Of a stretch of DNA of 64,000 bases, positions 27,452 to 56,006 are shown one piece after another. A model generated the notes under the pieces. That model was not told where the DNA came from, ran no database searches, and worked only from the letters and a program-made list of their open reading frames with translations. A program made the translations under genes and the position numbers. The stretch covers positions 434,001 through 498,000 of the forward strand of contig NZ_JARQWW010000003.1 in the NCBI RefSeq assembly GCF_029543125.1. Reading direction: 5' to 3'. This stretch comes from Caulobacter segnis. GTDB lineage: Bacteria > Pseudomonadota > Alphaproteobacteria > Caulobacterales > Caulobacteraceae. The first letter of the stretch is position 1. The number at the start of each line of letters is the position of its first letter.

Positions 27452-28036
27452 CGCCCCCTGTGCATCGCTGCGCGATCCATACGCGCGATCACGGCAAAGG
27501 GCAGCGTAAATCGGCGTTCTTCAGCCGAGCCGACGAAAAGATGGATCTGATGAAACGTCGTCTGCACAGTCGCCGCCCCAGCGACACCCGCCGCACTACG
27601 GGCAGGAGCTAAACTCAAGGCGAAGCTTGTGGTTCCCTTGATCGAAGGGAACGCGTCGCTGTTTTCCTTGGAAATCTGGGAAGTTCAGGTTCGGCCCGAT
27701 GTCTGGCGTTTAACTTTCCCAGGGCCTCGTCACGTCATTGCCGGCGGCCGATCATTCGCGTGCAGGCCACAAGCGCGTCTTCAAGGGCAGCCTGCCGCGA
27801 CGCGAGTGAGACAAGCTGGATTTGGCGCTCCGACAAGACTGACACGATGATGCTCCGTTGCGTCGCGCCCGCAAATGTGGACAGGAAGATTGGGCAAGAG
27901 GTGGAGCGCCATGCTTGCGCTCACTGGAAGCTGCTCCTTCAGGCCGTACGCTGCCAGGGGCGACCTGCCTGAGGCGTCAATCACGGCCGAGATTTCCGAT
28001 AATATATATTAGACGCTAAATGGATGGGGCCGTCCA
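27452..28036. other. Gene-poor region upstream of the chemotaxis operon
   Basis: Presumed promoter region of the chemotaxis operon (minus strand) plus about 500 bp in which no recognisable gene is seen. Short frames on both strands (for example 27781-27984 on -) lack family features. The local AT-rich stretch near 28003-28020 marks the change into the mobile-element-derived sequence that follows. Confidence 0.4.
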
Positions 28037-28139
28037 GGCGACGTCCCTGCTCATCACTGACCATAATAGATGCCCCATTTAATTGATGCGGCTTTTGGCA
28101 CCGGAATAGATGCCGCTTTTCGCCAAAATAGATGCGGCA
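28037..28139 (-). mobile_element. Solo terminal end of an IS21-like insertion sequence, copy A
   Basis: Three AATAGATGC-type repeats and one ATTGATGC variant are spaced about 20 bp apart. Read on -, the block starts with TG, runs through repeats of the form GCATCTATT, and ends in a start-like 'MVSDEQGRRL', which resembles the N-terminus of IS21-family IstA as I recall it. The frame then diverges, so only the end and about 10 codons remain. A near-identical block lies at 38489-38587 in the same orientation (7 mismatches and a 3-nt gap over about 100 bp). The repeat is certain; the IS21 assignment is probable. Confidence 0.6.
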
Positions 28140-28188
28140 TTGTCCCGGCCCGGAGAACGAAGACACCGCCATCGCCCAGGTCGCGACT

Positions 28189-28320
28189 GTCCCGAAACTC
28201 GTCCGATGCGGAGGTTTCGCGACTTTGATTTCGCTACAGAGTTCTCGGACGCACCTACCCGGAAATATTTCAACGATGCGTCGCCGGCAGCTGCTGTCCG
28301 GAAAACGTAGGTTTTTCGGA
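28189..28320 (-). other. Decayed resolvase res-like site
   Basis: Read on -, this segment aligns with the res region ahead of the serine resolvase at 48502. It shares the paired 12-mers (here GTCCCGAAACTC at 28189-28200 and GAGTTCTCGGAC at 28239-28250), the central TTTGATTTCGC stretch and a distal TTTTCCGGACAGC. It is inverted relative to the intact site and has no resolvase gene next to it. It is best read as the remnant of a related Tn5053-like element. Confidence 0.55.
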
Positions 28321-28446
28321 CGCGGGCTACAGTGGAGCATGTCCGCCTAGGAGCCGCCATGATTCAGAAGGGCTTTACATAGGTGATGCCGGCGCGAACG
28401 TTGGAGTCGTCACCGCGCGCCGTCACGCGTGTCGTTGCATAGCCAA

Positions 28447-28791
28447 CTACTGACAAAGTTCGACCAGATCGGACGGGACTGGCATCGGCGCTTCAGCTGG
28501 TACATCAGCGCCCCCGGTATTGCCGACGGGCAAGCGTCCCATCCACGACAGTAAGCCACCCGCCGCCAGGCGGATTATCTGCCCCCTCACCTCGCGCCAG
28601 TCACGCCGGCGCAAGCCGACTTTCAGCATCGTCCAATGGGCCCAGCTATGAGCTCCGGCCGAAGGTTGACCCAGGATGTGTGCGCGCTCCAGGCGCCGAA
28701 AGGCCTCGTCAAGATCGCCTTTGGCCAACGCCTCCTTCGCCAAGGCGGCCTCGTCGCGATAGGCGGCCAACCGTTTCGGCTTGAGCGTCAT
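28447..28791 (-). CDS. DUF3703-type protein of a metal-resistance operon
   Basis: 114 aa. Start at 28791 because it overlaps the upstream CDF stop (ATGA) and begins 'MTLKPKRLAAYRDEAALAKE'; the upstream extension is out of family. The sequence is a helical repeat-like domain: 'GDLDEAFRRLERAHILGQ', 'HSWAHWTMLKVGLRRRDW' and 'IIRLAAGGLLSWMGRLPVGN'. It matches my recollection of DUF3703, small proteins found downstream of cation efflux genes. The His and Trp residues are suggestive of metal handling, but no function is established. Last gene of the metal operon. Confidence 0.65.
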   Translation of the reverse strand: MTLKPKRLAAYRDEAALAKEALAKGDLDEAFRRLERAHILGQPSAGAHSWAHWTMLKVGLRRRDWREVRGQIIRLAAGGLLSWMGRLPVGNTGGADVPAEAPMPVPSDLVELCQ

Positions 28792-29453
28792 GCCGCGGCT
28801 CCAGCGGCGCTCCGCTCCTCGCGCGCCTGCAGGGTGATCTGCCAAGCCGAGCGAAGGAAAATCACGGCCAGGAAGACGCCGACAATCAGGTCGGGCCAGC
28901 GCGAGCCCGTCAAGCTGACCACAAGACCAGTGAACGCCACGGCGATGCATTGGATGACATCGTTGCGGGTGCAGAGCCAAACCGAGCGGACATTGGCGTC
29001 GCCGTCGCGGTATCGAAGTAGGAGCAGCGCGGCGAGCAGATTGGCGGCGATGCCGAACAGTCCTGCGCCAGAAATCGCGAAGCCCTCAGGCTCCGCGCCC
29101 GACACCAGTCGCCAAACGGCGATGCCGACGACGCTGGCCGCCAAGAGCGCCAGGCTGGCGCTCTTGATGAAAGCCGCATTGGTCCGGGCCGCGACGCTTC
29201 TGCCAATCACCCAGAGGCTAAGGCCATAGGTGGCTGCATCGGCCGCGAAATCCAGTGAGTTGGCCGCAAGCGTCGTCGATTGCGCCACCAGACTTCCGAC
29301 CGCGACCACCACGAACCCCACGAGGTTGATGGCGATCACCGCCGCAAGAATGCGCCGGTAGGCCTTCGAGGCGCCATCGAAGCGAACGGTCTGGCCGCAG
29401 CAAGACGATCCGGCGGAAGGCGTGGTGGATTTGGTGGTTGAGCAGCTTGTCAT
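28788..29453 (-). CDS. Cation diffusion facilitator (short form)
   Basis: 221 aa with about six membrane helices. Metal-site helices are recognisable: 'NSLDFAADAATYGLSL' (Asn/Asp-x3-Asp in TM2) and 'CTRNDVIQCIAVAFTG' (Asn-Asp in TM5). The N-terminus is Cys/Ser/Thr-rich ('MTSCSTTKSTTPSAGSSCCG'), possibly metal-binding. It lacks the cytoplasmic C-terminal domain of full-length CDF proteins. It would export Zn, Co or Cd by proton antiport. Overlaps both neighbours by 4 nt. Confidence 0.8.
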   Translation of the reverse strand: MTSCSTTKSTTPSAGSSCCGQTVRFDGASKAYRRILAAVIAINLVGFVVVAVGSLVAQSTTLAANSLDFAADAATYGLSLWVIGRSVAARTNAAFIKSASLALLAASVVGIAVWRLVSGAEPEGFAISGAGLFGIAANLLAALLLLRYRDGDANVRSVWLCTRNDVIQCIAVAFTGLVVSLTGSRWPDLIVGVFLAVIFLRSAWQITLQAREERSAAGAAA

Positions 29454-31507
29454 GCCTGCACCCTGCGCCCTGTAGCTGGTACAGGGTCAAGTTCGTCATT
29501 GGCCGTCATCGGATCGCGGTAAGCCAGCAGGCGAAGGGCGTTGAATACCACCAACAAGGTCGACCCCTCGTGCATCATCACAGCCGGCCCGATCCCCAGA
29601 CCCATGATCGTCGCGGGCACCAGTATCGCCACGACGCCGAGGCTGACGAAGACGTTCTGGCGGATGATCCGCCGTGTGCCGCGGCTTAAGCCCACCGCGA
29701 ACGGCAGATGAGCGAGATCATCGGCCATCAGCGCTACGTCCGCTGTCTCGAGCGCGACGTCCGAACCGGCCGCCCCCATGGCGACGCCGACCGTCGCACT
29801 GGCCATGGCCGGGGCGTCATTGACCCCGTCGCCGACCATGGCGACCTTGTCCTCACCGGCGAGCTTCTTTATCGCCGCCACCTTGTCCTCGGGCATCAGG
29901 TCGCCCCAGGCCTCGTCGAGCCCAACCTCCCTGGCGATGGCGTCGGCGACCTTCTGGTTATCGCCCGAGATCATGATCATGCGGCTGACGCCCAGCTTGT
30001 GCAGCTTTGCAAGCGCGGCCTTCGCCGAGGCCCTTGGCGTGTCCATCAGGCCGATGGCGCCAAGGTCCCTCCCCGCCCTGCGCACCACCATGGTCGTACG
30101 GCCCGCCTCGCGAAGCTTGGCGATGGCATTCTTGGCGACTGCATCCAGCGCGGGCACGCCGTCCGCACCGAACATCTCAGCCTTGCCGATCCAGACGGTG
30201 TCTCCATCGATCTTCGCGGCGACGCCCTTGCCCGTGAAGCTGCGAAGATCGGTCGCCACAGGAAAGGTCTGCTCGCCCAGACGTTTACGCCCATCCCTGA
30301 CGATCGCTTGGGCGAGCGGATGGTCGCTCATAGCCTCGACCGCCACCGCCACAGCCAGAAGCTCCTGCTCGGTCGCGCCCTCGACCGCAACGATGTCGGT
30401 GATCCGCGGACGCCCCTCGGTCAGAGTTCCGGTCTTGTCGAAGGCGATGGCTTTGAGCGAGCCAAGGTTCTCCAGAGGCGCGCCGCCCTTGACGAGCACC
30501 CCGCCACGCGCCGCCCGAGCGACGCCGGACAGCACGGCGCTGGGCGTGGCGATGGCCAGGGCGCAGGGGCTTGCCGCCACGAGGACGGCCATGGCGCGGT
30601 AGAAGCTGTCGGTGAAAGGCTCATCCACGACCACCCAGGCGAAGAGCAGAAGAACGGCGGTGATCAGCACGGCGGGGACGAAGAACCGTTCGAAACGTTC
30701 GGTGAACCGCTGGGTCGGCGACTTCTGGGTCTCCGCCTCGCTGACCATCTTGACGACCTTGGCCAGGGCGGTCTCGTCCGAGCGACGGGTCACCTCGATC
30801 TCGATCACCGCGCCGCCGTTGATCGTGCCGGCGAACACCCGGCTCGCAGCGTCGAGAGAGTCTGGTCGTTCGCGGGCTATAGCCGGGTCAGCCACGGGTG
30901 ATTTGTCGACGGGGATGCTTTCGCCAGTGACCGGAGCCTGGTTGATCGCGCTGGCGCCTTTGGTGACGAAGCCGTCGGCCGCCAGCCGCTCGTTGGGACG
31001 AATGATGACGGTGTCGCCGACCACCAGCTCCTGCACCGCAATCTCGAGAGTTTGCCCTTCCCGACGGACGGTGGCGGTGTCGGGCGCAAGTTCGGCCAAC
31101 GCCTCGATGGCGCGCTTTGCGCGCCCCATGGCATAGTGCTCGAGCGCATGGCCTAGGCTGAAGAGGAAGAGCAGCAAGGCGCCTTCGGCCCATTCCCCAA
31201 GCGCGGCCGCGCCCATGGCGGCGACCAGCATCAGGGTGTCGATCTCGAACTTCCTGTGCTTGAGGTTCTCAAGAGCCTCGCGCGTCGTAAAGAAGCCGCC
31301 GAAGCCGTAGGCTGCAATATAGCAGGCCATCGGCAACGCGCCCGGTGCGCCAGAGACGAGCTTTTCGACAGCAAAGCCCATGCCCAGCAAGGCGCCGCAA
31401 GCCAGGGCGAAGATTAGTTCGGTGTTGGCGCCGAGGAGGCCAGCGTGGGCGTGTTCGTCTTCGGAACCGGAAGACGCAACGTGATCTTGGTGGTTCTGGT
31501 CGGCCAT
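29450..31507 (-). CDS. P1B-4-type heavy-metal ATPase (Co/Zn/Fe class)
   Basis: 685 aa from the ATG at 31507, which shares a base with the upstream stop (TGATG). The His-rich N-terminus ('NHQDHVASSGSEDEHAHAG') has no CXXC domain. Landmarks: TM motif SPC at 313-315 instead of CPC, phosphorylation site DKTGT at 357-361, 'VTGESIPVDK', hinge 'GDGVNDAPAMASATVGVAMG' and a late-TM 'HEGSTLLVVFNALRLL'. SPC plus HEGS/T defines the P1B-4 subgroup, often linked to cobalt, zinc or iron export. It acts in the inner membrane, complementing the envelope-spanning Czc pump in the same operon. Confidence 0.9.
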   Translation of the reverse strand: MADQNHQDHVASSGSEDEHAHAGLLGANTELIFALACGALLGMGFAVEKLVSGAPGALPMACYIAAYGFGGFFTTREALENLKHRKFEIDTLMLVAAMGAAALGEWAEGALLLFLFSLGHALEHYAMGRAKRAIEALAELAPDTATVRREGQTLEIAVQELVVGDTVIIRPNERLAADGFVTKGASAINQAPVTGESIPVDKSPVADPAIARERPDSLDAASRVFAGTINGGAVIEIEVTRRSDETALAKVVKMVSEAETQKSPTQRFTERFERFFVPAVLITAVLLLFAWVVVDEPFTDSFYRAMAVLVAASPCALAIATPSAVLSGVARAARGGVLVKGGAPLENLGSLKAIAFDKTGTLTEGRPRITDIVAVEGATEQELLAVAVAVEAMSDHPLAQAIVRDGRKRLGEQTFPVATDLRSFTGKGVAAKIDGDTVWIGKAEMFGADGVPALDAVAKNAIAKLREAGRTTMVVRRAGRDLGAIGLMDTPRASAKAALAKLHKLGVSRMIMISGDNQKVADAIAREVGLDEAWGDLMPEDKVAAIKKLAGEDKVAMVGDGVNDAPAMASATVGVAMGAAGSDVALETADVALMADDLAHLPFAVGLSRGTRRIIRQNVFVSLGVVAILVPATIMGLGIGPAVMMHEGSTLLVVFNALRLLAYRDPMTANDELDPVPATGRRVQA

Positions 31508-32109
31508 CAGCGGCCCTCCCCTTGCCTGTCGGACTCGCGACGCGCGTCCTGAAGAATTTCGACGCCGCCCTTCAACGCTATGGCGGCGACGAGGACGCCA
31601 ATCGCCAGGTCGGGCCAGGCTTGGCCTGTGAGCATGACCAGCGCGCCAGCCAGGAGGATGCCGCCGTTTGAGGCGAAATCGTTCAGACTGAAGGTCTCGG
31701 CCGCACGCATGTTCACATCCTTGCCGCCCTGCCGTTTGACGAGGATCAGGCAGACGAGGTTCACGACGGCGGCGACTAGGGCCAGGACCATCATCGTGCC
31801 GCCGACAGGCTCGGTTCCGACGACCCAGCGGCGGACGGCGTCGGCCACCACGCCCACGGCGAAGATCAGCAGCATGATCCCTGACAGGCGGGCGGCGCCG
31901 CGCTTCCACCTGCCCGCCCTGCCCACAGCCAGAAAGCTGATCAGATAGACCGCCGCGTCCGAGCCGTTGTCGACGGCGTTGGCGAGCAGCGCGCTGGAGT
32001 CAGCGACGACGCCGCCAACTCCAAGCCCGCCCGCAAGGGCCGCGTTGAGGAGGAACACCGTCGCCAGCGTCTTGCGCTGGCGACGTTCCGATTGCGCCTT
32101 GGTCGTCAT
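31507..32109 (-). CDS. Cation diffusion facilitator (short form), second copy
   Basis: 200 aa, about six TM helices. 'NAVDNGSDAAVYLISF' in TM2 and 'TFSLNDFASNGGILLAG' in TM5 carry the metal-site residues of CDF exporters. Like the copy at 28788 it lacks the C-terminal cytoplasmic domain, yet the two differ clearly in sequence, so this is not a recent duplication. Start overlaps the CzcA stop (ATGA) and its stop shares a base with the P-type ATPase start. Confidence 0.8.
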   Translation of the reverse strand: MTTKAQSERRQRKTLATVFLLNAALAGGLGVGGVVADSSALLANAVDNGSDAAVYLISFLAVGRAGRWKRGAARLSGIMLLIFAVGVVADAVRRWVVGTEPVGGTMMVLALVAAVVNLVCLILVKRQGGKDVNMRAAETFSLNDFASNGGILLAGALVMLTGQAWPDLAIGVLVAAIALKGGVEILQDARRESDRQGEGR

Positions 32110-35100
32110 TCCTCGATCGCCTTTGGCTTGCGACGGCGAGCCGCCACGGCGGCGAAGGTCGGCAAGACCAGCAAGGTCAAAGCCGTGGACGTCAGCAGCC
32201 CGCCGATCACGACCGTGGCCAGGGGCTTTTGCACCTCGGCGCCGGCGCCGTGGGCGATGGCCATGGGGATAAAGCCAACGATGGCGACCAGAGCGGTTGT
32301 GAGCACGGCGCGCAGGCGGCTTGTCGCCCCCTCAACGGCGGCCTCGACGCTGGCGACACCCCTGTCGAGGCGTTCACGGATGGCTTGCATGAGGACAAGG
32401 CCGTTGAGGGTGGCCACGCCCGAGACGGCGATGAAGCCGACCGCCGCAGATACCGAGAACGGCATGCCGCGCAAGACAAGCGCCAGCGCGCCCCCGATCA
32501 GCGCCAAGGGCACGCAAGCGAACACCAGTCCGGCTTCGGCGAATGAGCCCAGCGCCATGAACAGCAGCAGCCCGATAAGGACGAACACGACCGGGATCAC
32601 CAGCCCCAGGCGCTGTTCGGCCCGCTTGAGATTCTCGAACTGCCCGCCCCACTCCAGACGCACGCCGGCCGGCAAGGCGATCTGATCGACCTTGCCTTGA
32701 GCCTCAGCGACGAAGCCGCCCAGATCGCGGCCGCGCACATTGGCCTGCACAACCATGCGGCGGCTGCCATTGTTGCGGCTGATCTGGTTGGGTCCCTCAG
32801 CGGTTTCGATACGCGCCACCGACGACAGCGGCACGGTGACTCCACTGGCCGACACGATCGGCAGCGCCGCCAGACTGGCCGGGTCGTTGCGAGCCGTCTC
32901 CGGCAGGCGCACGACAACGTCGAAGCGGCGGTCGCCCTCGAAAATCCGACCGGCTTGCGCACCGCCGATCGCAGCCGAGACCGCATCGCTGACATCGCCG
33001 GCGGTGAGGCCGTAGTTGGCGGCCGCGAACCGATCGACGCTGATGGTCAAGGTGGGAAGTCCCGAGGCCTGCTCCACACGAACGTCGGCCGAACCGCTGG
33101 TCTGGCGAAGCTGACCGGCCACCTGATCGGCGACCTTTTGCAAAGTGGCGAAGTCATCGCCATAGACGAGGACGGCAAGGTCGGTCCGCACGCCCGAGAT
33201 CAGCTCGTTGAACCGCAGCTCGATCGGCTGGCTGAATTCAAAGCTGTTGCCGATCTGGAGCGAAGCCTCCTTCTCGATCCGCGCGATGAGGTCTTCCTTG
33301 GGAAGCTTGGAGTCGGGCCAGTCGCTGCGGTCCTTCAGCACGATGACGCTGTCGGAGATGTTCGGCGGCATGGGGTCGACCGCCGCCTCGGCCGTGCCGG
33401 TGCGCGAGAACATGGTCTCGACCTCGGGCTGTGCCGTGATGGCGCGCTCCAGGGCCATCTGCATGGCCAGCGACTGCTCCAGGGACGCCGACGGCACGCG
33501 CAGCGCCTGCATGGCGATGTCGCCTTCATCGAGGGTCGGGATGAACTCTCGACCAAGGGTCGCAAAAGCCAGACCTCCGACAACGAGCGCCCCGAGGGCC
33601 GAGATAAGGACGACCTTGGGACGCGCCACGGCCGCAGATATGGCCGGTTCGATCCAGCGCCGCGCAAAGCGGATGACCAGGGTCTCGTGCTCCTCGGCTT
33701 CGCCGTTCGACGCGACATGGACACTCTTGGGCTCACGCACCAGCAGCGCTGTCATGGCAGGCACGAAAGTGAAGGAGAAGATGAAGGCCCCGATCAGGGC
33801 GAGCATCACTGTGGCGCCCATGGGGATGAAGGTCTTGCCCTCGACGCCTTCCAGCAGAAGGAGCGGCGTGAAGACCAGAAGAATGATCAGCTGGCCGAAG
33901 GCGGCCGGCTTGACCATCTGGCCGGCCGCCTTGCCCGCGGCTTCAAAGCGCTCCTTGCGGGTCAAAGCGCGCCCCAGGTCAGCACGTCTTTGCGCCAGCA
34001 CCAGCAGGGTGTTCTCGACGACGACAACCGCCCCGTCGACCAGCAGCCCAAAGTCGAGAGCGCCAAGGCTCATCAAATTGCCGCTGATGCCAAAGCGGTT
34101 CATGCCGATGACGGCGAAGAGGAAGCTGATGGGGATCATCAGCGCCGTGATGCTGGCGGCGCGGATGTTGCCCAGCAGCAGGAAGAGCACGACGACCACC
34201 AGTAGCGCGCCTTCGGTGAGATTGCGCGCCACGGTCTTGATGGTGGAGTTCACCAGGGCCGAGCGGTCAAGGACCGTCACCGCCTCGATGCCTGGCGGCA
34301 GGGTCTTGCGCACTTCCTCCAACCGCTCGCCCGCCGCCTGGGCGACCGTGCGGCTATTGCCGCCTGCGATCATCAGAGCGGTGCCAAGCACCGCCTCGTG
34401 CCCGTCGCGGCTGGCGCCGCCAAGCCTGGGCGCCTGGCCGATCTCGACAGTCGCCACATCAGCCACGCGCACCACCAGGCCGTTGCGGTTGGTGACCGGA
34501 GCTTGGGCGAGGTCTTCGGTGCGAAGCGCCAGGGCGTCGGTGCGCACCACGAGCTGTTCGCCCGCCCGCTGCACATAGCCGGCGCCGGCCTGCATGTTGG
34601 CCCGATCCAGGGCTGTGATCAGGTCCTGCAGTCCAAGTCCGTAGGAAGACAGGCGCGCGACGTCCGGCCGGACCGCATACTCCTTGACGTAGCCGCCGAC
34701 GGTGTCGACGCCGGCAAGGCCCTTGGCGGTGCGCATTTGCGGCGCGACGATCCAATCTTGGACCGTGCGCAGATAGGTGGCGCGCTGCTCGGGCGTGGCG
34801 AGCCGGTCCCCTTCCGGCGTCAGATAGGCGCCGTCAGATTGCCAGCCCGGCTTGCCGTTGCGAGCCAGGGCGCGATTGAACGGCTTATAGTCCACCGTCC
34901 ACATGAGGACTTCGCCCAGGCCGGTGGTGATCGGCGCTAGGGCGGGCTCGACGCCCTCTGGAAGGCGCTCGCGCGCCTGGGCCATCCGTTCGGCCACCTG
35001 CTGGCGGGCGAAGTAGATGTCCGTCTTGTCGTTGAAGATCACGGTGATCTGGCTAAAGCCGTTGCGGCTGAGCGATCGCGTGCTGGTGAGGCCGGGAATG

Positions 35101-35324
35101 CCGGCCATGGCGGTTTCCAGAGGATAGGTGACTTGGCGTTCGATCTGTTCGGGAGCCAGCGCCGGCGCGACCGTCGTGATCTGGACTTGGCGGTTGGTGA
35201 TGTCCGGAACAGCGTCGATCGGCAGTCTCGTCAGCTCGAAGAGGCCGTAGGAGGCCAAGACGGCGACGATGAGGACGACGAACCACCTGAGGCGGACGGA
35301 AAGTTCGATGATGGGTTTGAACAT
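32106..35324 (-). CDS. czcA: Heavy-metal RND efflux pump CzcA
   Basis: 1072 aa. TM1 region 'LSVRLRWFVVLIVAVLASYG' and 'LTRLPIDAVPDITNRQVQI' are typical of heavy-metal RND pumps. TM4 reads 'LDFGLLVDGAVVVVENTLL', with the two Asp and one Glu of divalent-cation HME-RND transporters. It drives Co/Zn/Cd export across both membranes with the adaptor and channel encoded upstream. 11 bp separate it from CzcB, and it overlaps the following CDF gene by 4 nt. Confidence 0.93.
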   Translation of the reverse strand: MFKPIIELSVRLRWFVVLIVAVLASYGLFELTRLPIDAVPDITNRQVQITTVAPALAPEQIERQVTYPLETAMAGIPGLTSTRSLSRNGFSQITVIFNDKTDIYFARQQVAERMAQARERLPEGVEPALAPITTGLGEVLMWTVDYKPFNRALARNGKPGWQSDGAYLTPEGDRLATPEQRATYLRTVQDWIVAPQMRTAKGLAGVDTVGGYVKEYAVRPDVARLSSYGLGLQDLITALDRANMQAGAGYVQRAGEQLVVRTDALALRTEDLAQAPVTNRNGLVVRVADVATVEIGQAPRLGGASRDGHEAVLGTALMIAGGNSRTVAQAAGERLEEVRKTLPPGIEAVTVLDRSALVNSTIKTVARNLTEGALLVVVVLFLLLGNIRAASITALMIPISFLFAVIGMNRFGISGNLMSLGALDFGLLVDGAVVVVENTLLVLAQRRADLGRALTRKERFEAAGKAAGQMVKPAAFGQLIILLVFTPLLLLEGVEGKTFIPMGATVMLALIGAFIFSFTFVPAMTALLVREPKSVHVASNGEAEEHETLVIRFARRWIEPAISAAVARPKVVLISALGALVVGGLAFATLGREFIPTLDEGDIAMQALRVPSASLEQSLAMQMALERAITAQPEVETMFSRTGTAEAAVDPMPPNISDSVIVLKDRSDWPDSKLPKEDLIARIEKEASLQIGNSFEFSQPIELRFNELISGVRTDLAVLVYGDDFATLQKVADQVAGQLRQTSGSADVRVEQASGLPTLTISVDRFAAANYGLTAGDVSDAVSAAIGGAQAGRIFEGDRRFDVVVRLPETARNDPASLAALPIVSASGVTVPLSSVARIETAEGPNQISRNNGSRRMVVQANVRGRDLGGFVAEAQGKVDQIALPAGVRLEWGGQFENLKRAEQRLGLVIPVVFVLIGLLLFMALGSFAEAGLVFACVPLALIGGALALVLRGMPFSVSAAVGFIAVSGVATLNGLVLMQAIRERLDRGVASVEAAVEGATSRLRAVLTTALVAIVGFIPMAIAHGAGAEVQKPLATVVIGGLLTSTALTLLVLPTFAAVAARRRKPKAIEE

Positions 35325-35335
35325 GGGCCTGCTCC

Positions 35336-36490
35336 CTAGTGCCCATGCCCGGCTTCGCCCTTGGAGAGCTCAGCCTTCAGCAAAAAGGTGTTGGTGGAAG
35401 CGATCCGCTCTTGTCCGGTGAGGCCGCTGACGATCTCGGTTCGACCCTCAGCCTGACGGCCGACGACGACTGGGCGAGCCCGAAAGCCCTCCTTGACCTG
35501 CACGAACACGACCGGCCCGCTCTCCAGGGTCTGGATGGCGTCAGCCGGAACGGTCAAGCCTTGGTCGCCAGTCTGGGTGACGACCGCTCCGGTGACGGCG
35601 GCGCCCGCCGGCGGAAGCACCGCGCTTGCCGCTCTGGCGCGTATCACCGCCGCGCCGCTTTGCGGCGTGGCGTTGGCGGCGACCCCGGTCACTTCGGCCT
35701 GGAAGTCGCCGGCCGGTCCGGTGACGCGGATAGCCGAACCCACCTTCACCTGGTTGGCGAGGCCGGCTGGCGCGTTGAACACCAGCTCCACGCGGGTCGG
35801 GTCGGTGACTTCGGCCACCACGCCGCCCTGGGCGACGAAGCCGCCAGGTCCGACCTGAACGCCGGTGACGACGCCAGAGATCGGGCTGGTGATGCTCAGA
35901 CGCCCCGACGCATTTGGCGATCCGGCGGCGCTGGTCCTAGCTCGCGCCGCCTGGGCGGCGGCGGCGGCGGCGGCGTGTTGTGCGCGTGAGGCCTCAACCT
36001 CCTGCCGAGCCACCACGCCCTGGTCGGCCAGGTTGCGGTTGCGCTGGTAGACCAGACGCGCAGCTTCGGCCTGGGCCGACGCCGCCGAGACGTCGGCCGC
36101 GAGCGATGCTGCGTCGCCGCTGACCAGGGTGACCAGCGGCTGACCCGCCCGGACCGTTTGCCCGGCCGCCACCAGAACACGTTCGACACGACCGGCCACG
36201 GCGGCGCCAGCTGCTGCCCTGGCGTCGACCATGGCCTCGACGCGGCCCGAGACGCGGGTTTCGGCGCCGCCGCCCCTGCCGACGGTGACGACAGCGATGC
36301 GTGAGGCTTCGATTTGCTGCGCATCGAGGGCGATCACGCCTTCAGGGGCTTTGGGCTCTGAGGCCTCGCCGGACTGCGGCGCCTGCGCGTCCGCCGGTGG
36401 ATGCTGTTCACGCGGCCAGTTGAAGGCCACGCCCGCAGCGACGACAGCCGCCACACTTGCTCCGATCAGGAGGCTTTTGGAGAGTTTCAT
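35336..36490 (-). CDS. czcB: Heavy-metal RND periplasmic adaptor CzcB
   Basis: 384 aa. An N-terminal anchor (about residues 7-25) is followed by an Ala-rich lipoyl/hairpin core ('VAGRVERVLVAAGQTVRAGQ', 'AQAARARTSAAGSPNASG', 'ITSPISGVVTGVQVGPGG') and a beta-barrel ('GLTVPADAIQTLESGPVVFV'). The C-terminus ends in GEAGHGH, a possible metal ligand set. It joins CzcA to CzcC. Start overlaps the CzcC stop (ATGA). Confidence 0.9.
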   Translation of the reverse strand: MKLSKSLLIGASVAAVVAAGVAFNWPREQHPPADAQAPQSGEASEPKAPEGVIALDAQQIEASRIAVVTVGRGGGAETRVSGRVEAMVDARAAAGAAVAGRVERVLVAAGQTVRAGQPLVTLVSGDAASLAADVSAASAQAEAARLVYQRNRNLADQGVVARQEVEASRAQHAAAAAAAQAARARTSAAGSPNASGRLSITSPISGVVTGVQVGPGGFVAQGGVVAEVTDPTRVELVFNAPAGLANQVKVGSAIRVTGPAGDFQAEVTGVAANATPQSGAAVIRARAASAVLPPAGAAVTGAVVTQTGDQGLTVPADAIQTLESGPVVFVQVKEGFRARPVVVGRQAEGRTEIVSGLTGQERIASTNTFLLKAELSKGEAGHGH

Positions 36491-37743
36491 TGAGATGAGC
36501 CTTGGTAAGGGGCGCGGCCTTCCAGGCGCGCCAGATCGATTTCAGCGCGGACGCGCGTGAGACGGGCTTCGACAGCGGTCGTGCGCGCGTCGATCAGGGC
36601 CGACCGTGTCGTTCGCAGCTCAAGTTGTGAGATGCGCCCGGCCTCAAAGCCGATGCGTGACAGACGGTAGGCTTCCTGAGCTGTGGCGACGCCCACGTCG
36701 GTGGCCTGCACGCGTGAGCTCGACGCCCGAAGACGCGCGCTCGCCGCCGCATAGCCCGCCGCCGCGTCCTGACGCGCCGAGGACAGCCTTGCGTCTGCCG
36801 CCCGGTACTCGGCCTGTGCGGCCCGCAGATTACCCCGGTTCCGATCGAACAGAGGAAGCGGCATGCTGACGCCGAACACGACGGCCGCCGTATCATCGAC
36901 TTCGAACCGCCGCACACCGACATTGGCGGTAATATCGGGCATGGCGCGCACACGCTCCACGGCGATGGCCCGCTCGGCCGCGAGACGCTCAGCCTCAGCC
37001 ACCTGCACCGACGGGGGTGTCGATGACCCATCGCCACGTTGCGCTGGGCTAAGATCCAGGAGGCTTACCTCGACGCTCGTGACAGGTTCTGCCAACAGGG
37101 CGACGGCTCGCAGACGAGCGAAGGCTGCGTCCCTTTCGGCGAGCGCTTCATCGCGCGCGGCGGCAGCCGCAGCCGACTGGCTTTGCGCCTGGACACCCCG
37201 GAGGGCCGGTTCACGCCCCTCCTCCACCTGCAGGCGCGCAGCTTTGGTGTCCGCTTCGGTAAGCGACAGGGCCTCATCTGCAAGGAGGTAGCGGCGCTGA
37301 GCGGCCTCGGCTTCGGCATAGACCAACGCAAGGCGGCCGGCCGCATCGAACGCGGCCAGATCGCGGCGGCGGGCGGCAGCCCCGGCTTCGGCTCTGGCGG
37401 CGTCGATACGAATGCCCCGCCGCCCCCAAAGCTCCAGTTGTTGGCTGACCGACAAGGTCGTCTCGGCCGCGTTGAAGCCAGAGTAAGCACCCCGCCCCAG
37501 CACGTTCTCTGCATCAAGGCCGAGCGTAGGGTTGGGTCGAGCGCGAGCCTGGAGGAGCCGTCCTTCGGCGGCGTCCTGAAGAGCGGCCGCTTCTTGCGCG
37601 GCTGGTGTTTGATCGAGCCGCTTCAGGAGGTCCTGAAACGGGGGCGCGGGTTCAGCCCAGGCAGGGCTGGTGAGCGCGGTCGCTAGAGCGATCCACGCGC
37701 AGCCGGCCGCAAAGCGCGGCGGCCGCCGAAATACGGATGACAT
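36487..37743 (-). CDS. czcC: Heavy-metal RND outer-membrane channel CzcC
   Basis: 418 aa with a signal peptide ('ALATALTSPAWAEPAPPF'). Two outer-membrane-factor repeats are seen: 'ARPNPTLGLDAENVLGRG' with 'SVSQQLELWGRRGIRIDAA', and 'PLFDRNRGNLRAAQAEYRAA' with 'AYRLSRIGFEAGRISQLEL'. The PLF-x-R-N-G-N segment is typical of CzcC. It forms the exit duct of the Czc complex and lies 52 bp after the CzcI-like gene. Confidence 0.9.
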   Translation of the reverse strand: MSSVFRRPPRFAAGCAWIALATALTSPAWAEPAPPFQDLLKRLDQTPAAQEAAALQDAAEGRLLQARARPNPTLGLDAENVLGRGAYSGFNAAETTLSVSQQLELWGRRGIRIDAARAEAGAAARRRDLAAFDAAGRLALVYAEAEAAQRRYLLADEALSLTEADTKAARLQVEEGREPALRGVQAQSQSAAAAAARDEALAERDAAFARLRAVALLAEPVTSVEVSLLDLSPAQRGDGSSTPPSVQVAEAERLAAERAIAVERVRAMPDITANVGVRRFEVDDTAAVVFGVSMPLPLFDRNRGNLRAAQAEYRAADARLSSARQDAAAGYAAASARLRASSSRVQATDVGVATAQEAYRLSRIGFEAGRISQLELRTTRSALIDARTTAVEARLTRVRAEIDLARLEGRAPYQGSSQ

Positions 37744-37795
37744 GATTGGAGTCCCAAAGAGCTGACACGAGACGCGCTCATCGGCGCGGCGGCGG

Positions 37796-38149
37796 TCAGG
37801 CCTTGGGTGGGCGCTTCAGGCCTTCGGGTGTAATCGAGGCGAGCGCCGGATCCGCCATGAGCGGACGATCGTTGGCGCCGACCAGCGTCAGCGTCTCAGT
37901 GGCGATGAACTCGCCCCGGAGAGACGAGCCGTGGTGGCAATGTCCATGCGCGCAGACGGCGTGATCCGCCCCTGCTCCACCGTGGTCGCCGCCCTTAGGT
38001 CCGTGATCAGAGGAGACATGCTCAGCCGCCGCAACGGGCGACTCTGGCGCGCAGGTGACAGCGTCGATGACAGGCGCAGCGACGAACACGGCGACCACGA
38101 GGGTCAGCGCCGCGATCAGCCGCTTAAAGCTTGCGATCGTCCGGTCCAT
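37796..38149 (-). CDS. Small exported His-rich protein, CzcI-like
   Basis: 117 aa from the ATG at 38149 (a GTG at 38158 is possible). A hydrophobic signal or anchor at about 10-30 ('LIAALTLVVAVFVAAPVI') is followed by a His-rich stretch ('HVSSDHGPKGGDHGGAGADH' then 'CAHGHCHHG') likely to bind divalent metals in the periplasm. First gene of the metal operon, in the position and with the size of CzcI/CzcE-type periplasmic proteins. Sequence identity to any known family could not be checked. Confidence 0.65.
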   Translation of the reverse strand: MDRTIASFKRLIAALTLVVAVFVAAPVIDAVTCAPESPVAAAEHVSSDHGPKGGDHGGAGADHAVCAHGHCHHGSSLRGEFIATETLTLVGANDRPLMADPALASITPEGLKRPPKA

Positions 38150-38187
38150 AGCCGCCACGTAGTAAGCGTCGAGTGCTTTGGCAATGC

Positions 38188-38226
38188 GTTATAAGTTACC
38201 GCACGCCTGTATGTTATAAGATACAG
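38188..38226 (-). promoter_or_regulatory. Candidate operator/promoter of the metal operon
   Basis: A 20-bp palindrome with one mismatched pair at 38207-38226 (CTGTAT, GTTATAAG, ATACAG) is preceded by a second GTTATAAG copy at 38188-38195, about 25 bp away. Read on -, each contains TTATAAC, which could serve as a -10. It lies 39-77 bp upstream of the first gene. No metal sensor gene is in the island, so the regulator must be elsewhere. Confidence 0.5.
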
Positions 38227-38488
38227 TAGGCGAGCCGGCAGCGATCCGCGGCGACATCAAGTAGTTCGTAGATTCTAGGTCTATGTTTGACGGGGATTAG
38301 AAAACACCGCGCCTCGTGCTGAACAACAGACTGGCGCGTACGGCGCCCCGGGCCACTAAGCCACATCTAGCACCTGATCTTGCGCGTCAATTGCCGCGAA
38401 ATTTCTGACCGAGTGCGATCCTCGTATCGACGATGGTCGCTTCAAATGCAGCATCAATTCCAGTGAAACTACGCATCTATTGTAGTAG
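38227..38488. other. Intergenic sequence between the metal operon and IS21-like end B
   Basis: No gene or clear repeat is seen in this stretch. It separates the metal operon's promoter region from the IS-derived end. Confidence 0.3.
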
Positions 38489-38587
38489 GCGACGCTGCTC
38501 CTCACTGACCAAAATAGATGCCCCATTCTATTGATGCGGCTTTTCGCACCGGAATAGATGCGGCTTTTGGCCAAAATAGATGCGGCA
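38489..38587 (-). mobile_element. Solo terminal end of an IS21-like insertion sequence, copy B
   Basis: Same block as at 28037-28139 and in the same orientation: AATAGATGC repeats and a terminal TG (read on -). A start-like frame 'LVSEEQRRLLQ' terminates at once. Both copies break off just after the RRL codons, so they are parallel truncations. Together they bracket the 10.3-kb metal island, and this copy abuts the tyrosine recombinase gene. Confidence 0.6.
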
Positions 38588-38601
38588 TCTAGTCTCTCAC
38601 G

Positions 38602-39546
38602 TCAGAGACGTAAGAGACTTACATCGATGGACGCATGGGCTTCCCGATCATAGCGCCGCGTGAGGTTTACGCTGGAGTGACCAGCAAGCTGTTGAGCACC
38701 TCGTAGGTCTCCGCCGCTCTCGAGGTAGTTCGTAAGGCTCGCTGCGCGGAATGAATGGCTAGAGATCCCTTCACCATCGATGCCCAACTCTTTGAAGCGC
38801 CTGGTGATGATTGACCAAGTCTCCTGGCGTAAAAGCCTCTTCCCGGATTTCGACGGAAAAAGCGGTGTATCGGGACCGTCGAGATATGGATGGACGTCAA
38901 GGTAGGCATCGAGGATCGTGCTGAACTGTAGCCCAATTGCGAGTCGCCGAACTTGTCTCCGGCTGTTTTGGACGAGCAGGCAACGTGTGCCCCCAATGTC
39001 AGCAATCGTCCCAATGTTGAGGCCGGTGAGCTCGGAAGCTCTGATCGCGGTGAAGTAAAAGGTGGCGAAGATTGCCCTGTCACGGATATCGAGCCATGTC
39101 TCTGTGGGCATCGCTTCAAGCAGCATCTTTATCTGATTGCGATCGAGCGCCGTAGTTGCGGGCGCTTTCTCCAAACGCGGGGGCTTAATGCCCCACGTTG
39201 GATTGACCTGAGACGGCTCGTATATCCTGAGCCGTCGGTAGAAGTGAGCGATTGCAGCTAGACGTTGCCTCCGCGTCGCCGTCGTAACACCAGCTTCGGC
39301 AGCAGCGTCATCCCAGGCTCTAACGATGGCATCAGTGACATGCTGCGCCGCGCCGACCTCTGCGACCTGCGGCGAGGAGAAGAAATAACGGAGCGCCAAC
39401 CGATACGCACTGACGGTGCTTGGCGGCGTGCCTGGATCGAATAGGTTCGACCATGTCTCCTGGACTGCGGAGCTGCTCACGGACAGCACAGGCGGATCGA
39501 CTGGTACGTACGTCCTGCTACGTTGCCCCCCTGCCCGCTGAGCCAT
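38602..39546 (-). CDS. Tyrosine recombinase (phage-integrase family)
   Basis: 314 aa from ATG 39546, preceded by AGGTGG. The N-terminal SAM-like DNA-binding domain spans about 28-110. The catalytic set is complete: Arg169 ('FTAIRASELTGL'), His264-x2-Arg267 ('SHSFRAAS'), His290 ('LAGHSSVNL') and nucleophile Tyr299 ('RRYDREAH'). It is a functional-looking site-specific recombinase of XerC/integrase type. It sits 15 bp from an IS21-like end and between the metal and defence regions. Whether it moves either block is unknown; no attachment site was recognised. Confidence 0.88.
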   Translation of the reverse strand: MAQRAGGQRSRTYVPVDPPVLSVSSSAVQETWSNLFDPGTPPSTVSAYRLALRYFFSSPQVAEVGAAQHVTDAIVRAWDDAAAEAGVTTATRRQRLAAIAHFYRRLRIYEPSQVNPTWGIKPPRLEKAPATTALDRNQIKMLLEAMPTETWLDIRDRAIFATFYFTAIRASELTGLNIGTIADIGGTRCLLVQNSRRQVRRLAIGLQFSTILDAYLDVHPYLDGPDTPLFPSKSGKRLLRQETWSIITRRFKELGIDGEGISSHSFRAASLTNYLESGGDLRGAQQLAGHSSVNLTRRYDREAHASIDVSLLRL

Positions 39547-39650
39547 CACCACCTCGCTGGAAGATCGTCGGAGGGTATCTAGATTCGGGATTCGGCAGCG
39601 CTCTCGTATGCATTATGCTGCTGTCGGATTTGATCGGTTGAGGCAGGGCC

Positions 39651-43618: not shown

Positions 43619-44197
43619 TCAGCCCTGCAGGTCGGACATCTCGCGACGGAGAAAGTCGAGGCCGTAGGCGGCGAGGGCCACTGCGGCGAAGGTCTCGCCT
43701 AGATCGTAGTTGTAGCCGTCTGGAACAGCATGGAGCTGGCCCCGCTCCATGACGGGCTGCAGCCGAAGGTGCTCCGGCAAGAAGGAGATGAACGGTGGCG
43801 GGTCATCGCAGGTCGGCGTGTACGTGTATATCCGCCTGCCATCCCCCTCGGTTCGGACGCTCTCCTCATACCCACCGAAGGCGCCCACCGCGATGATGCT
43901 TTCCTGCGGCGCACTAATCGGCGCGACGCCATGCTCGTCGGCGTTTCGGGCGGCCCAAAGGTAGGCGAGCGCCGAATCGGCGGCCACGCGAGTGATCGGA
44001 GCGGCGTAAGCCTTGGACCTCCTGCGCCCAGCTGCCTCGCAGCGGTTCAAGGCGCGACGCCAGTGGATGAGGTAATCTTCCCAAGCGGACCTGGCACTTT
44101 CGAAGGATGCAGCGGCGGCCAGGGCCTCGTAGGCTTGGATCGCGCGATCCGCCGACGCACGCGCCGGATCAAGGTCGGCAGGCGAATTGGCCGTCAC
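43619..44197 (-). CDS. HEPN-like protein coupled to the nuclease-STAND gene
   Basis: 192 aa from a GTG at 44197 whose bases overlap the upstream stop (GTGA); a longer upstream frame is antisense to the neighbour and implausible. Helix-rich N-terminus, then 'ALAYLWAARNADEHG' with the canonical HEPN ribonuclease pattern Arg84-Asn85-x3-His89. Later segments 'IYTYTPTCDDPPPFISFLPE' and 'ETFAAVALAAYGLDFLRREM' complete a HEPN-like helical layout. HEPN proteins of toxin and defence systems are metal-independent RNases or dimerisation modules. Coupling to the STAND protein suggests a shared function; this is inference. Confidence 0.6.
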   Translation of the reverse strand: MTANSPADLDPARASADRAIQAYEALAAAASFESARSAWEDYLIHWRRALNRCEAAGRRRSKAYAAPITRVAADSALAYLWAARNADEHGVAPISAPQESIIAVGAFGGYEESVRTEGDGRRIYTYTPTCDDPPPFISFLPEHLRLQPVMERGQLHAVPDGYNYDLGETFAAVALAAYGLDFLRREMSDLQG

Positions 44198-48186: not shown

Positions 48187-48375
48187 ATCTCGCCCCTAGA
48201 ATCGCGTTCGCTGCACTTTTCGCATTTCCGCGACCAAGACGTCGAGGACCGCCGTTCTTCCGCTGCTCATCGCCCCATTGAACTATCACCGCCCTGTCCA
48301 CCCGGACGCCGATCTGGTCGTAGCACGCGAGCCAGCGACGCCCTCGCCCGATCGCCGGTCTCTAAAACCACCCTT

Positions 48376-48491
48376 TTCCGGACAGCGAAACGGATTGGAC
48401 TCCCGATCAAATAAAATCGGCTGCCCCCAGTCCGAAAACTCTGTTGCGAAATCAAAGGCTCGAAACTTGCGTTCCGGACGAGTTTTCGGAC
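48376..48491 (+). other. res recombination site of the serine resolvase
   Basis: Immediately upstream of the resolvase ATG. A perfect 12-bp inverted repeat GTCCGAAAACTC (48430-48441) / GAGTTTTCGGAC (48480-48491) flanks an imperfect repeat around 48460. A further TTTTCCGGACAGC lies at about 48376. Several inverted subsites beside a resolvase gene are the expected res layout, and the site may double as its operator. A decayed inverted counterpart is at 28189-28320. Confidence 0.7.
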
Positions 48492-48501
48492 TTTGTTGCG
48501 T

Positions 48502-49056
48502 ATGCTCATCGGCTACGCCCGCGTCTCGACGAACGAACAGAACCTCGACCTTCAGAAGGACGCGCTTCTGGCGGCGGGTTGCGAACGCATTTTCGAGGAG
48601 AAGGTCAGCGGCAGCCGTGAGGACCGGACGTCGCTAAGCGCTGCACTCTCCCACCTGAGGGCTGGCGACACGCTCGTTGTGTGGAAGCTCGACCGCCTGG
48701 GGCGCACTGTCCGTCAGCTCGTCGAGTTGGTGAGCAAGCTCGAAAAGCGGGGCGTCCACTTTGCGAGCCTCACCGACCGGATCGACACCTCGACCGCCTC
48801 CGGCCGCTTCTTCTTCCACGTAATGGCGGCGCTAGCGGAGATGGAGCGCGACTTAGTCCGCGACCGTACGCGCGCGGGCCTGGCAGCTGCTAAGGCGCGC
48901 GGGCGCCACGGCGGCCGGCCCCTAAAACTCTCTGGTTTGCAAATCGAGCATGCCAGGCGCCTCCTGGCCGACCCGACGATCACCGGAACGGATGTGGCGA
49001 GAACTCTGGGGGTTGCCCGGTCGACGCTTTACCGTTCAGTCGGAAAGGCTATTTGA
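48502..49056 (+). CDS. tniR: Serine resolvase (TniR-type) of the Tn5053-like module
   Basis: 184 aa from the ATG at 48502. Catalytic domain begins 'MLIGYARVSTNEQNLDLQ' with Arg7 and nucleophile Ser9; 'DTLVVWKLDRLGRTVRQLVE' and 'RFFFHVMAALAEMERDLVRD' follow. The C-terminal helix-turn-helix reads 'ITGTDVARTLGVARSTLYR'. It resolves transposition cointegrates at the res site just upstream. It faces tniQ across a cluster of four small genes on the other strand and overlaps the last of these by 8 nt. Confidence 0.92.
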   Translation: MLIGYARVSTNEQNLDLQKDALLAAGCERIFEEKVSGSREDRTSLSAALSHLRAGDTLVVWKLDRLGRTVRQLVELVSKLEKRGVHFASLTDRIDTSTASGRFFFHVMAALAEMERDLVRDRTRAGLAAAKARGRHGGRPLKLSGLQIEHARRLLADPTITGTDVARTLGVARSTLYRSVGKAI

Positions 49057-49613: not shown

Positions 49614-50021
49614 TCACCTAACGGCGTCGGTCAACTGCAAATCGGCCCCATACTCCTCCAGGACTGTTGTCAGCACAACATTGGAGGCAAACTGCTCGCG
49701 CCTATCCAGCTCAGCCTTGAGCTGCCGATGGAAAGAAGGCTCCAACCAAAGTGTAATCTGGGTGGCCGACGTCGGAGGCCCCCTTAAGAAGGGCTCATCA
49801 GGCAAGCGGTCGGCCACAAAACGAGCGAGTGCTGACTGATAAAGATCGTTGACCCGTTCGCCGCGCTCGAGCGCGATCGCACGCATGCGTCGATGCAGCA
49901 GGGCTGGCAGGCGCACGGAGAGGGCGACCCTCCCCTGCTCAGCAAATGATTTTGGTTTCGCGGCCGACGGCATTGCCGAATCAGAAACTGCGTCGGCCCA
50001 ATTATCAAGGGCGCTCAACAT
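49614..50021 (-). CDS. Protein with two ribbon-helix-helix-like segments
   Basis: 135 aa. 'GRVALSVRLPALLHRRMRAI' with 'VNDLYQSALARFVADRL' forms one RHH-like unit, and 'ATQITLWLEPSFHRQLKAEL' with 'ASNVVLTTVLEEYGADL' a second. Such proteins bind DNA as dimers; two units in one chain could bind as a monomer. The start at 50021 lies 17 nt inside the tniQ 3' end; the next ATG (about 49973) is an alternative. It may regulate the tni operon or the small genes downstream. Confidence 0.6.
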   Translation of the reverse strand: MLSALDNWADAVSDSAMPSAAKPKSFAEQGRVALSVRLPALLHRRMRAIALERGERVNDLYQSALARFVADRLPDEPFLRGPPTSATQITLWLEPSFHRQLKAELDRREQFASNVVLTTVLEEYGADLQLTDAVR

Positions 50022-50997
50022 ACAGCTGGCCGTGCATATGAACTCGACGGCTCAAATGTGCGATCACCATATCGTTCAGGGGGGGCGGCCACTGCCTGCG
50101 CATACAGTCGAGCATACGCAGCTGGAACGGCGTCATCTCGTTGATCGCCACGGACCAGGGCGACGCCATGGTTCGCGTAAGGTTGCGGGTTGAAGCTCCG
50201 TACAGCCCCGCCTCCCAAACCCTCATGGTGGCGGTGAGCTCGGCTGAAGGGCGACAGAGCAACAGCGCCGCAGCGACTAGAGCGTGGCTGCGCATGGTCG
50301 CGCCGAGAGTGCTTAGCGCCTCGAGATCAGCTGCCAGACTGCACGCCGTGGAGCGCCTCAGGCGCTCACGAGAGACCCAGTCGCTGAGGCTCCAGAAGAA
50401 GCCACGATCCGAGACCAAGACAAGAGCGAGATCGAGACCGACGCGGCGAACCATCTCGGGTTCACTCACAAGGAAATGGCCTGGCGCCCGATTGCTGAGG
50501 CCCATCATCACCGATTGAAACTGCAAAACCAGGTCGGGCACCGGAAAGGCGTGTCGCTCCACTTCGACATTGGTCGGCCGACGACGCGGCAAAAACTCCT
50601 CGCCAACTTCTGAGAGCAGGCAAGCATGGTCGGGACAGGCGGCCGCGAAAACGCTGTTGTCGCGCGCCCGTAAAACCGTGCGGCCAATGCGGTCATGGTC
50701 AAGCTGAGCGTAGTGAAGGCAGATCTGCCAGCGTTTGGTGCGGCCGGGGTTGAGTCGGTATTGAGCTAGCGGCTGGGCCCTGCAGGCCTGAGCGACAATG
50801 CTGCGCAGCTGCGGGACCGTGGTTTCGGCGCCCTTTGCCAGTAGCCTGAGAAGTGACTCCTCCGGCCGCCAGTCCAAATCCCCGGCAGGACGGTCGATCA
50901 GGGCCGCGATCGATGTGCCCTGCCCGCGCGCGATGGCGTGGATCCATCCGCTAAGCAATTCGCCTGGTTCAGGGCTCGCGGCGTAGGCGAACAGCAT
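50005..50997 (-). CDS. tniQ: TniQ transposition accessory protein
   Basis: 330 aa. 'PEPGELLSGWIHAIARGQG' near the N-terminus and 'FAAACPDHACLLSEVGEEFL' (zinc-finger-like CPxHxxL) are the recognisable TniQ features. The region after about 170 is helical. TniQ proteins of Tn5053/Tn402 and Tn7-like elements assist target selection with TniB and TniA. It lies 6 nt after the TniB stop. Only one CPDH-type half finger is seen, so zinc binding is uncertain. Confidence 0.82.
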   Translation of the reverse strand: MLFAYAASPEPGELLSGWIHAIARGQGTSIAALIDRPAGDLDWRPEESLLRLLAKGAETTVPQLRSIVAQACRAQPLAQYRLNPGRTKRWQICLHYAQLDHDRIGRTVLRARDNSVFAAACPDHACLLSEVGEEFLPRRRPTNVEVERHAFPVPDLVLQFQSVMMGLSNRAPGHFLVSEPEMVRRVGLDLALVLVSDRGFFWSLSDWVSRERLRRSTACSLAADLEALSTLGATMRSHALVAAALLLCRPSAELTATMRVWEAGLYGASTRNLTRTMASPWSVAINEMTPFQLRMLDCMRRQWPPPLNDMVIAHLSRRVHMHGQLYVERP

Positions 50998-51003
50998 TGG
51001 CGG

Positions 51004-51927
51004 TCAACCGCGCCGACGGCGGTCACGGGCCGACTCGCGGGCCTCGCTCGCGGTGGGGATGAAAGCGCGACCTCCCCTCGCCGCTTCCAATTCGTGGACG
51101 CTGATGACCTCGGAGCCTGTCTTGATAGCGATCCGAGCAGCGTCTTGGAGCAACATCACAGCGTCGTGGGTGATGTCGCCACCGTCGTCGAAGACGCGCT
51201 CGATCAGCGCTCGGTTGACCACAGTGGGGAGACGCAGGGGCATGCCTGCGAGGTACGCGGCTATAAACCCACTGTACTCAGATTTGCACGGCCAGGGCTC
51301 CATCAAGATTCGGCGAAAGCGCCGATTGAGCTGGATATCTTCGTCCAGTACATTCGCCACTACTTCAGTGCCAGCTAGCACCACAGGGACCATTGTCTCG
51401 TTGGTCAGCCACTTCAGCGCATGGCGAAAAGCAATGACCGCAGAGCGGGGGAAATCATCGACGTTGCCAGTCTCGTCGAGGATGATCACCCGCGTGCCAG
51501 CCTCCTCGAGAAGTTCGACAAGTTTGCGAAAGCGAGCGCCTGTCGACCGAGGTAACGCAAGCTTGTATCCGAGCTTTCTGATCATCTCTTCGATGAGCCA
51601 AGGAATGCTCGGTTCAGCCGGGTATTGCAGATACAACACCGGCACCTTGAGCATGCCCTGCTTGTCGCGGTAACTGGGGTGACGTTCCTGGAAGCTCTTC
51701 AGAATGAACGTCTTGCCGATGCCTGGTGGCCCCAGAAGCGCCAGGCCGACGGCGCGGAGCGTCTGCTTCCTTCGATACTGGATTTCGAGCTCTTCACCGA
51801 CGAATAGGAAGGTCGGCGTAGCGACGATCCGGTCCTCATCGATGTACCGCAGGCGTGCCTTGTCGGAGCGTGCTGCAATCCTTGCGATACGCGGATCCAG
51901 ATGTGGATACGGGTTCTCCGTCGTCAT
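51004..51927 (-). CDS. tniB: TniB AAA+ transposition regulator
   Basis: 307 aa. Start at 51927 overlaps the TniA stop (ATGA). Walker A GPPGIGKT (66-73) in 'AVGLALLGPPGIGKTFIL', Walker B 'VIILDE' (147-152), sensor 'PVVLAGTEVVANVL' and a C-terminal lid. It belongs to the TniB/MuB/TnsC class, which forms ATP filaments on target DNA and recruits the transposase. Length matches intact TniB. Confidence 0.9.
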   Translation of the reverse strand: MTTENPYPHLDPRIARIAARSDKARLRYIDEDRIVATPTFLFVGEELEIQYRRKQTLRAVGLALLGPPGIGKTFILKSFQERHPSYRDKQGMLKVPVLYLQYPAEPSIPWLIEEMIRKLGYKLALPRSTGARFRKLVELLEEAGTRVIILDETGNVDDFPRSAVIAFRHALKWLTNETMVPVVLAGTEVVANVLDEDIQLNRRFRRILMEPWPCKSEYSGFIAAYLAGMPLRLPTVVNRALIERVFDDGGDITHDAVMLLQDAARIAIKTGSEVISVHELEAARGGRAFIPTASEARESARDRRRRG

Positions 51928-55850: not shown

Positions 55851-56006
55851 GAAAAGGAGCACCATTTATGGTGCGATTAGGCGCCCCTATCCTGTTGAAG
55901 CGGCCTAGAAGCTGCATCTATTACGAGAATATGGGGCATCAAATGCGGTCGGTGACGCTGCTTCAAAGACGGCTTGCCGGTTGATCGCCTCGACCCACGT
56001 GCTTTG

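Follow-up and report, generated by a model that had tools for sequence, protein, structure and literature searches.

An orphan res site carried by a czc unit in a metal island of Caulobacter segnis

The window analysed here, a stretch of 64,000 nucleotides from Caulobacter segnis, contains a metal island with two related res sites of serine resolvases about 20 kb apart. The left one is, judged from its sequence, a complete orphan res: sites I, II and III are present in this order, over roughly the 120-140 bp expected of a three-subsite res, upstream of the position at which a resolvase gene would start, and the cognate gene itself is missing. It lies in a czc (cation-efflux) unit (unit 1), the extent of which is given by comparison with a plasmid copy, and the right one lies in an adjoining unit (unit 2) together with a resolvase gene and tni genes (Table 1). 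Each res site thus has a mobile unit of its own, the two units standing in tandem; this corrects the earlier reading of the island, and the site once called decayed carries the better crossover site of the two. We regard it as probable that the left copy is a complete res whose resolvase gene is missing, start codon included, and that it has become the passenger of a czc unit that was itself probably moved in trans.

Table 1 Features of the two mobile units and their res sites (positions in the window)
Feature	Position	Strand	Evidence
Unit 1, czc/cation-efflux genes and orphan res	28049..38502	.	10,454-bp ungapped match, 96.8%, NZ_CP114872.1
Left end of unit 1, four AATAGATGC-type iterons	28049..28140	+	Repeat D1 with 38490-38588, 91%
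Expected position of resolvase ATG, reads CTG	28177..28179	-	Spacing from AAATCAAA; model match ends there
Orphan res of a serine resolvase with three subsites, resolvase direction leftward	28181..28322	-	nhmmer, five-relative model
Sites II and III of orphan res	28189..28250	-	82% over 62 nt to 48430-48491; 27.0 bits, sites II-III model
Site I (crossover) of orphan res, GTCCGAAAAACC-TA-CGTTTTCCGGAC, dyad 10/12	28296..28321	-	Site I matrix, five relatives
Right end of unit 1, inverted iterons, GGCGACG	38446..38494	-	
Left end of unit 2	38490..38588	+	91% to 28042-28140
XerC/D-like tyrosine recombinase, may mobilise both units	38602..39552	-	Pfam Phage_integrase 87.9 bits
Site I of right res, GTCTCTAAAACC-AC-CCTTTTCCGGAC, dyad 7/12	48358..48383	+	Site I matrix
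Sites II and III of right res	48430..48493	+	nhmmer 31.3 bits; 32.6 bits, sites II-III model
Serine resolvase (tniR-type) beside right res	48502..49056	+	Pfam Resolvase 162 bits
tniQ (weak)	50005-50997	-	TniQ 18.5 bits, below 27-bit cutoff
tniB	51004-51939	-	Pfam TniB 116 bits
tniA	51924-53606	-	Pfam Mu-transpos_C 26.1 bits, above cutoff; integrase core domain not listed
Right end of unit 2, inverted iterons, GGTGACGCTGCT	55911..55962	-	Similarity to other unit ends

The left res site and its missing resolvase gene

Local alignment of positions 28150-28345 with the reverse complement of 48340-48520 gave a score of 98, whereas 2000 dinucleotide shuffles averaged 21.1 (sd 3.4) and reached 43 at most, and the same-strand alignment of the two regions scored 31, which is inside the shuffle range. 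The aligned parts include the 62-nt block 28189-28250/48430-48491 (82% identity), which was the longest inverted pair found by a repeat search of 27-56 kb, and the distal 13-mer GCTGTCCGGAAAA, positions 28293-28305 being identical to the reverse complement of 48374-48386. The order of the blocks is kept, and the approximately 45 bp separating them, located between sites I and II, align poorly. The comparison confirms homology of the two res sequences in inverted orientation, as the first-pass annotation had proposed from their likeness, common block order and opposite orientation, and their alignment score lies above that of all 2000 shuffles; the coordinates proposed for the left copy (28189-28320) were nearly exact, the profile match described below running from 28322 to 28181.

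For the assignment of subsites, relatives of the unit 2 resolvase were collected (39 loci on genome contigs; 55 of 390 family genomes matched at 1e-40) and 61 distinct upstream regions were examined. Five Caulobacter regions with recognised sites I, II and III (L064, L008/L035, L065/L011, L062/L009 and L061/L010) served to build a profile without either window copy; L063, which has sites II and III only, and L066/L012, where a 73% identical resolvase is found without a similar res, were omitted. A seven-sequence MAFFT alignment misplaced site I of both window copies, and the profile together with a site I matrix was used instead.

With nhmmer, the left res matched 144 of the 149 profile positions, from 5 to 148, at 31.3 bits (E = 5.6e-9); the match of the right res covered 64 positions, from 79 to 142, also at 31.3 bits (E = 5.3e-9), with weak additional matches on the other strand at the left site I (15.1 bits) and at the right site I (5.1 bits, E = 0.62). 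With a split model of site I, the left copy scored 18.0 bits on one strand and 7.6 bits on the opposite one; for the right copy the score was 10.1 bits, on the other strand. By the site I matrix, the left site scored 32.5 and 26.7 bits depending on orientation, ranking first and second among 127,950 positions, and the right site 19.1 bits (rank 3) and 6.4 bits (rank 6). The left site I is dyad-symmetric around a central 2-bp overlap, with 10 of 12 paired positions as compared to 7 of 12 in the right copy and 8 or 9 in the five relatives, and a symmetry of at least 10 of 12 occurred in 8 of 63,974 windows. AAATCAAA lies 77 bp from the centre of site I in the left copy, 78 bp in the right copy and 78-79 bp in the five relatives. 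As indicated by alignment with the relatives, the remaining block of the left copy presumably divides into sites II and III. The description of the left copy as decayed is contradicted by the coverage of almost the entire profile, by a site I that outscores the right one and by the kept spacing of the subsites. The left res is thus complete, yet it is not nearer the consensus throughout, since the profile totals are equal and the right copy is ahead at sites II-III (Table 1).

The profile stopped just short of the start codon, and a model extended by 90 nt of coding sequence was therefore built to locate the end of the similarity. The right copy matched this model up to position 238 of 239 (93.4 bits), and the match of the left copy ended at position 152 (32.3 bits), which corresponds to window position 28177, the start codon. 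The codon expected there begins 52 nt past the first base of AAATCAAA, the ATG of the relatives being located at 51-52 nt. As the similarity ends at the start codon in the left copy and continues in the right one, the left copy is a complete res from which the resolvase gene is gone. A tblastn search of 28049-38502 with the right resolvase yielded a best E value of 0.82, which bears out the earlier observation that there is no resolvase beside the left copy; since the cognate gene is absent and its start position reads CTG, we term this res an orphan. An insertion of a res-hunting tni element at the left site was also considered and rejected: it would split the res, yet the spacing between sites I and II is intact. 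Insertions of tni elements at res fall mostly between these two sites (PMC12217951).

Two mobile units in tandem

A blastn search of 72,556 plasmid records with 28010-28345 gave a single match, plasmid NZ_CP114872.1 of Caulobacter sp. NIBR2454 (99.7% identity over 297 bp). The match to this plasmid extends through unit 1 and breaks off at both ends of 28049-38502; the boundaries of the unit would lie at about 28052-38494. The same stretch, at the coordinates of the plasmid, is carried by contig C2 of genome G245, and these two copies of unit 1, in the window and on the plasmid, were the only ones found in the plasmid records and family genomes searched. No recombinase was found in unit 1 (28049-38502). 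None of the listed literature matches on Caulobacter czc units described the unit by its title.

The window and plasmid copies of unit 1 form a mosaic, with 2 mismatches in 28049-29165, about 5% divergence in 29.2-35.5 kb and none in 36.05-38.05 kb, and this pattern with a divergent middle (29166-35500) suggests homologous recombination between czc units. Selection on the left site was rejected as an explanation of its conservation: because the unit is a mosaic and the neighbouring 1.1 kb is as identical between the copies as the site, the identity of the latter is uninformative on selection. Directly left of the czc unit on the plasmid (locus L003, 12768-18005), an annotated integrase pair is found together with a large open reading frame and a repeat of about 53 bp that occurs twice, as if another tyrosine-recombinase element had inserted beside the unit.

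The ends of both units carry iterons (Table 1). In unit 1, the left res lies inward of the left iteron block, at a distance of about 40 bp. The right end of unit 2 aligned with a score of 39 to the right end of unit 1 and with a score of 44 to each of the inverted left ends (0 of 1000 base shuffles in each case). The junction sequence is GGCGACGTCCCTGCTCATCACTGACC at 28.03 kb, GGCGACGCTGCTCCTCACTGACC at 38.49 kb and GGTGACGCTGCTTCAAAGACGG at 55.95 kb, and on the plasmid unit 1 is flanked by GGGCGCA and GGGCGCC in place of the CTGCTC motif. These sequences suggest a tyrosine recombinase whose overlap, of about 6 bp, is variable, and by which two units may have accreted at one site; the variable overlap and a mobilisation in trans are suggested because no recombinase was found in unit 1 and its flanking motif on the plasmid is different. 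From its position beside the iteron end, the XerC/D-like protein of unit 2 is the candidate mobiliser of both units. The earlier proposal of successive insertions at one hotspot was right in outline, the junction repeats delimiting an island of 28-56 kb. In genome G257, the matches to window positions 27992-28023 and 56007-56434 are separated by about 180-200 bp, as would fit a single insertion locus. Outside the island the window has only about 50 bp between these stretches; the intervening sequence in G257 has diverged and is too long for a clean empty site. Alignment of the joined flanks to G257 brought no gain over the right flank alone, and the near-empty site rests on the two separate matches.

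Unit 2 (38.50-55.96 kb) comprises the tyrosine recombinase, an IteA/IteS-like pair, the resolvase and tniQBA. Two proteins encoded at 40139-43496, an AAA ATPase and an S8 peptidase, resemble the anti-phage proteins IteA (302 bits) and IteS (155 bits), with scores below the NCBIfam cutoffs. A protein of 1330 amino acids adjoining the resolvase (44194-48186) has weak matches, mainly to TPR, and is possibly a defence protein. Between resolvase and tniQ, a small open reading frame (49614-50021) with a weak ribbon-helix-helix antitoxin match is located; it is found at the same place in locus L009, and a weaker match lies near the tni genes of L093.

In the tni block of unit 2 (50005..53606, minus strand), the order and the neighbours of the candidate tniA and tniQ genes fit Tn5053/Tn402, the res-site hunters, and TniB and a resolvase, both expected in this family, are present. 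Terminal repeats with 5-bp duplications were not found in the stretches searched: the best pair of TGT...ACA inverted repeats matched at 15 of 25 positions and had no 5-bp duplication (right ends in 53606-54099 against left ends in 28000-50099), and 53600-54030, compared against the complete locus L009 in search of the end of the tni element, had no match there. In the right copy the resolvase gene faces tniQ, an arrangement that Tn5053 is not known to have.

Relatives of the resolvase and the origin of the left site

The left res is probably that of a serine resolvase of the same clade as the one in unit 2. In the likely ancestor, czc genes stood beside a res/resolvase pair, from which the left res would have been inherited; the resolvase gene would then have been lost from its start codon onward, leaving the res as a passenger at the left end of the czc unit. 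This unit was probably moved in trans by a tyrosine recombinase of the type encoded by the neighbouring unit and integrated in tandem, which we consider probable because the ends of unit 1 match those of the neighbouring unit encoding such a recombinase.

Searches with the left site retrieved 3 of 390 family genomes, including its own, and 1 of 357 class genomes, again its own; one of the family matches (72%) lies in front of the resolvase of locus L008. At this locus (L035/L008), the nearest found to such an ancestor, a frame-disrupted resolvase with a left-type res is accompanied by czcA on the 3' side of the resolvase. Because disrupted resolvase, res and a nearby czcA occur together there, the res/resolvase module and metal genes have met elsewhere; the layout differs from that of the window, in which the czc genes lie beyond site I. 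A locus with czc genes, a left-type res and a resolvase in the right order was not found.

According to the first-pass annotation, the left copy is decayed and stems from an older, Tn5053-like (tni) transposon that occupied the left edge of the island. The type of the res, which is that of the tni-linked right copy, and the location of cargo beyond site I in both copies agree with such an origin. The closest resolvases are found at seven distinct loci, six of them with a similar res, and tni genes adjoin two of these resolvases (L009, and L093, which is the locus of L064). At the other five (L010, L011, L012, L035 and L092), however, none were found by tblastn with the window proteins, a search that divergent ones could escape, and Pfam scans of ten open reading frames detected no tni in L010, L011 and L012. 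The left site is, moreover, not decayed; a tblastn search of unit 1 with the tni proteins of the window detected no remains of tniA, tniB, tniQ or the resolvase gene (tniR), the lowest E value being 0.12, and the unit is also present on a plasmid in which tni genes were not detected: in 36 kb of NZ_CP114872.1, the window resolvase and tni proteins were unmatched at 1e-5 (tblastn), and the listed genes, a table that is incomplete, include neither a resolvase nor tni. An origin from a decayed tni transposon is therefore unlikely, and for the ancestor with czc genes, res and resolvase proposed here, the identity of a Tn5053-like transposon is possible.

The left site is a known kind of leftover, an orphan res on a non-autonomous element, on a carrier of a different sort. 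IS101 and the TIMEs are non-autonomous elements derived from Tn3, some of which contain an orphan res; they share with the left copy a res that lacks a resolvase of its own and a carrier that has to be moved in trans; IS101 functions, poorly, with the resolvases of Tn3 and Tn1000 (PMC4133298), and TIME244 has a putative Tn21-type res with three subsites (PMC13367494). These elements are miniature, whereas the left copy is carried by a metal unit that measures about 10.4 kb, outside their size range, and the ends of unit 1 carry iterons and resemble ends beside a tyrosine recombinase. SGI1 likewise has an island-borne Tn3-like res upstream of a resolvase gene (PMC12217951), but there an integron interrupts the res and the resolvase gene survives, whereas the left copy has an unbroken res and lacks the gene.

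Possible use of the orphan res

The resolvase of unit 2 could bind the left site. It is the only protein of its genome to be matched by the resolvase query at E <= 1e-8 and would provide a candidate for a function of the orphan res as a working part of the czc unit, in which resolvases of neighbouring elements resolve multimers or cointegrates in trans. The three subsites and their spacing, which are kept, and the precedent of IS101 (PMC4133298; PMC13367494) speak for such a use. In G245, on the other hand, the best match shares only 42% identity with the resolvase, and the site may be idle there; the conservation of the site is not above that of the flanking genes, and two copies of the unit are all that the searches recovered. 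We consider this use doubtful, and slightly more so the combination in which the czc unit would borrow two recombinases, a tyrosine recombinase for tandem integration and, via the orphan res, a serine resolvase for multimers or tandem copies. The significance of a complete orphan res lies in its being a possible target for resolvases and res-site-hunting transposons from other elements, and such sites therefore mark places of possible further insertions or exchanges. The practical value of this is modest.

The inverted orientation of the two sites had also raised the prospect of low-level inversion, and inversion in vivo between inverted res sites is possible (PMC13367494); cleavage occurs at the central 2 bp of the crossover site (PMC12217951). 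These dinucleotides are TA in the left copy and AC in the right one, the right site I is the poorer of the two, and the intervening 20 kb span the boundary of two mobile units. Unequal crossover dinucleotides give mismatched exchanged ends. A role of the two sites as an inversion switch for this segment is thus highly improbable, and, since the crossover dinucleotides differ, stable or productive exchange between the left and right sites appears unlikely.
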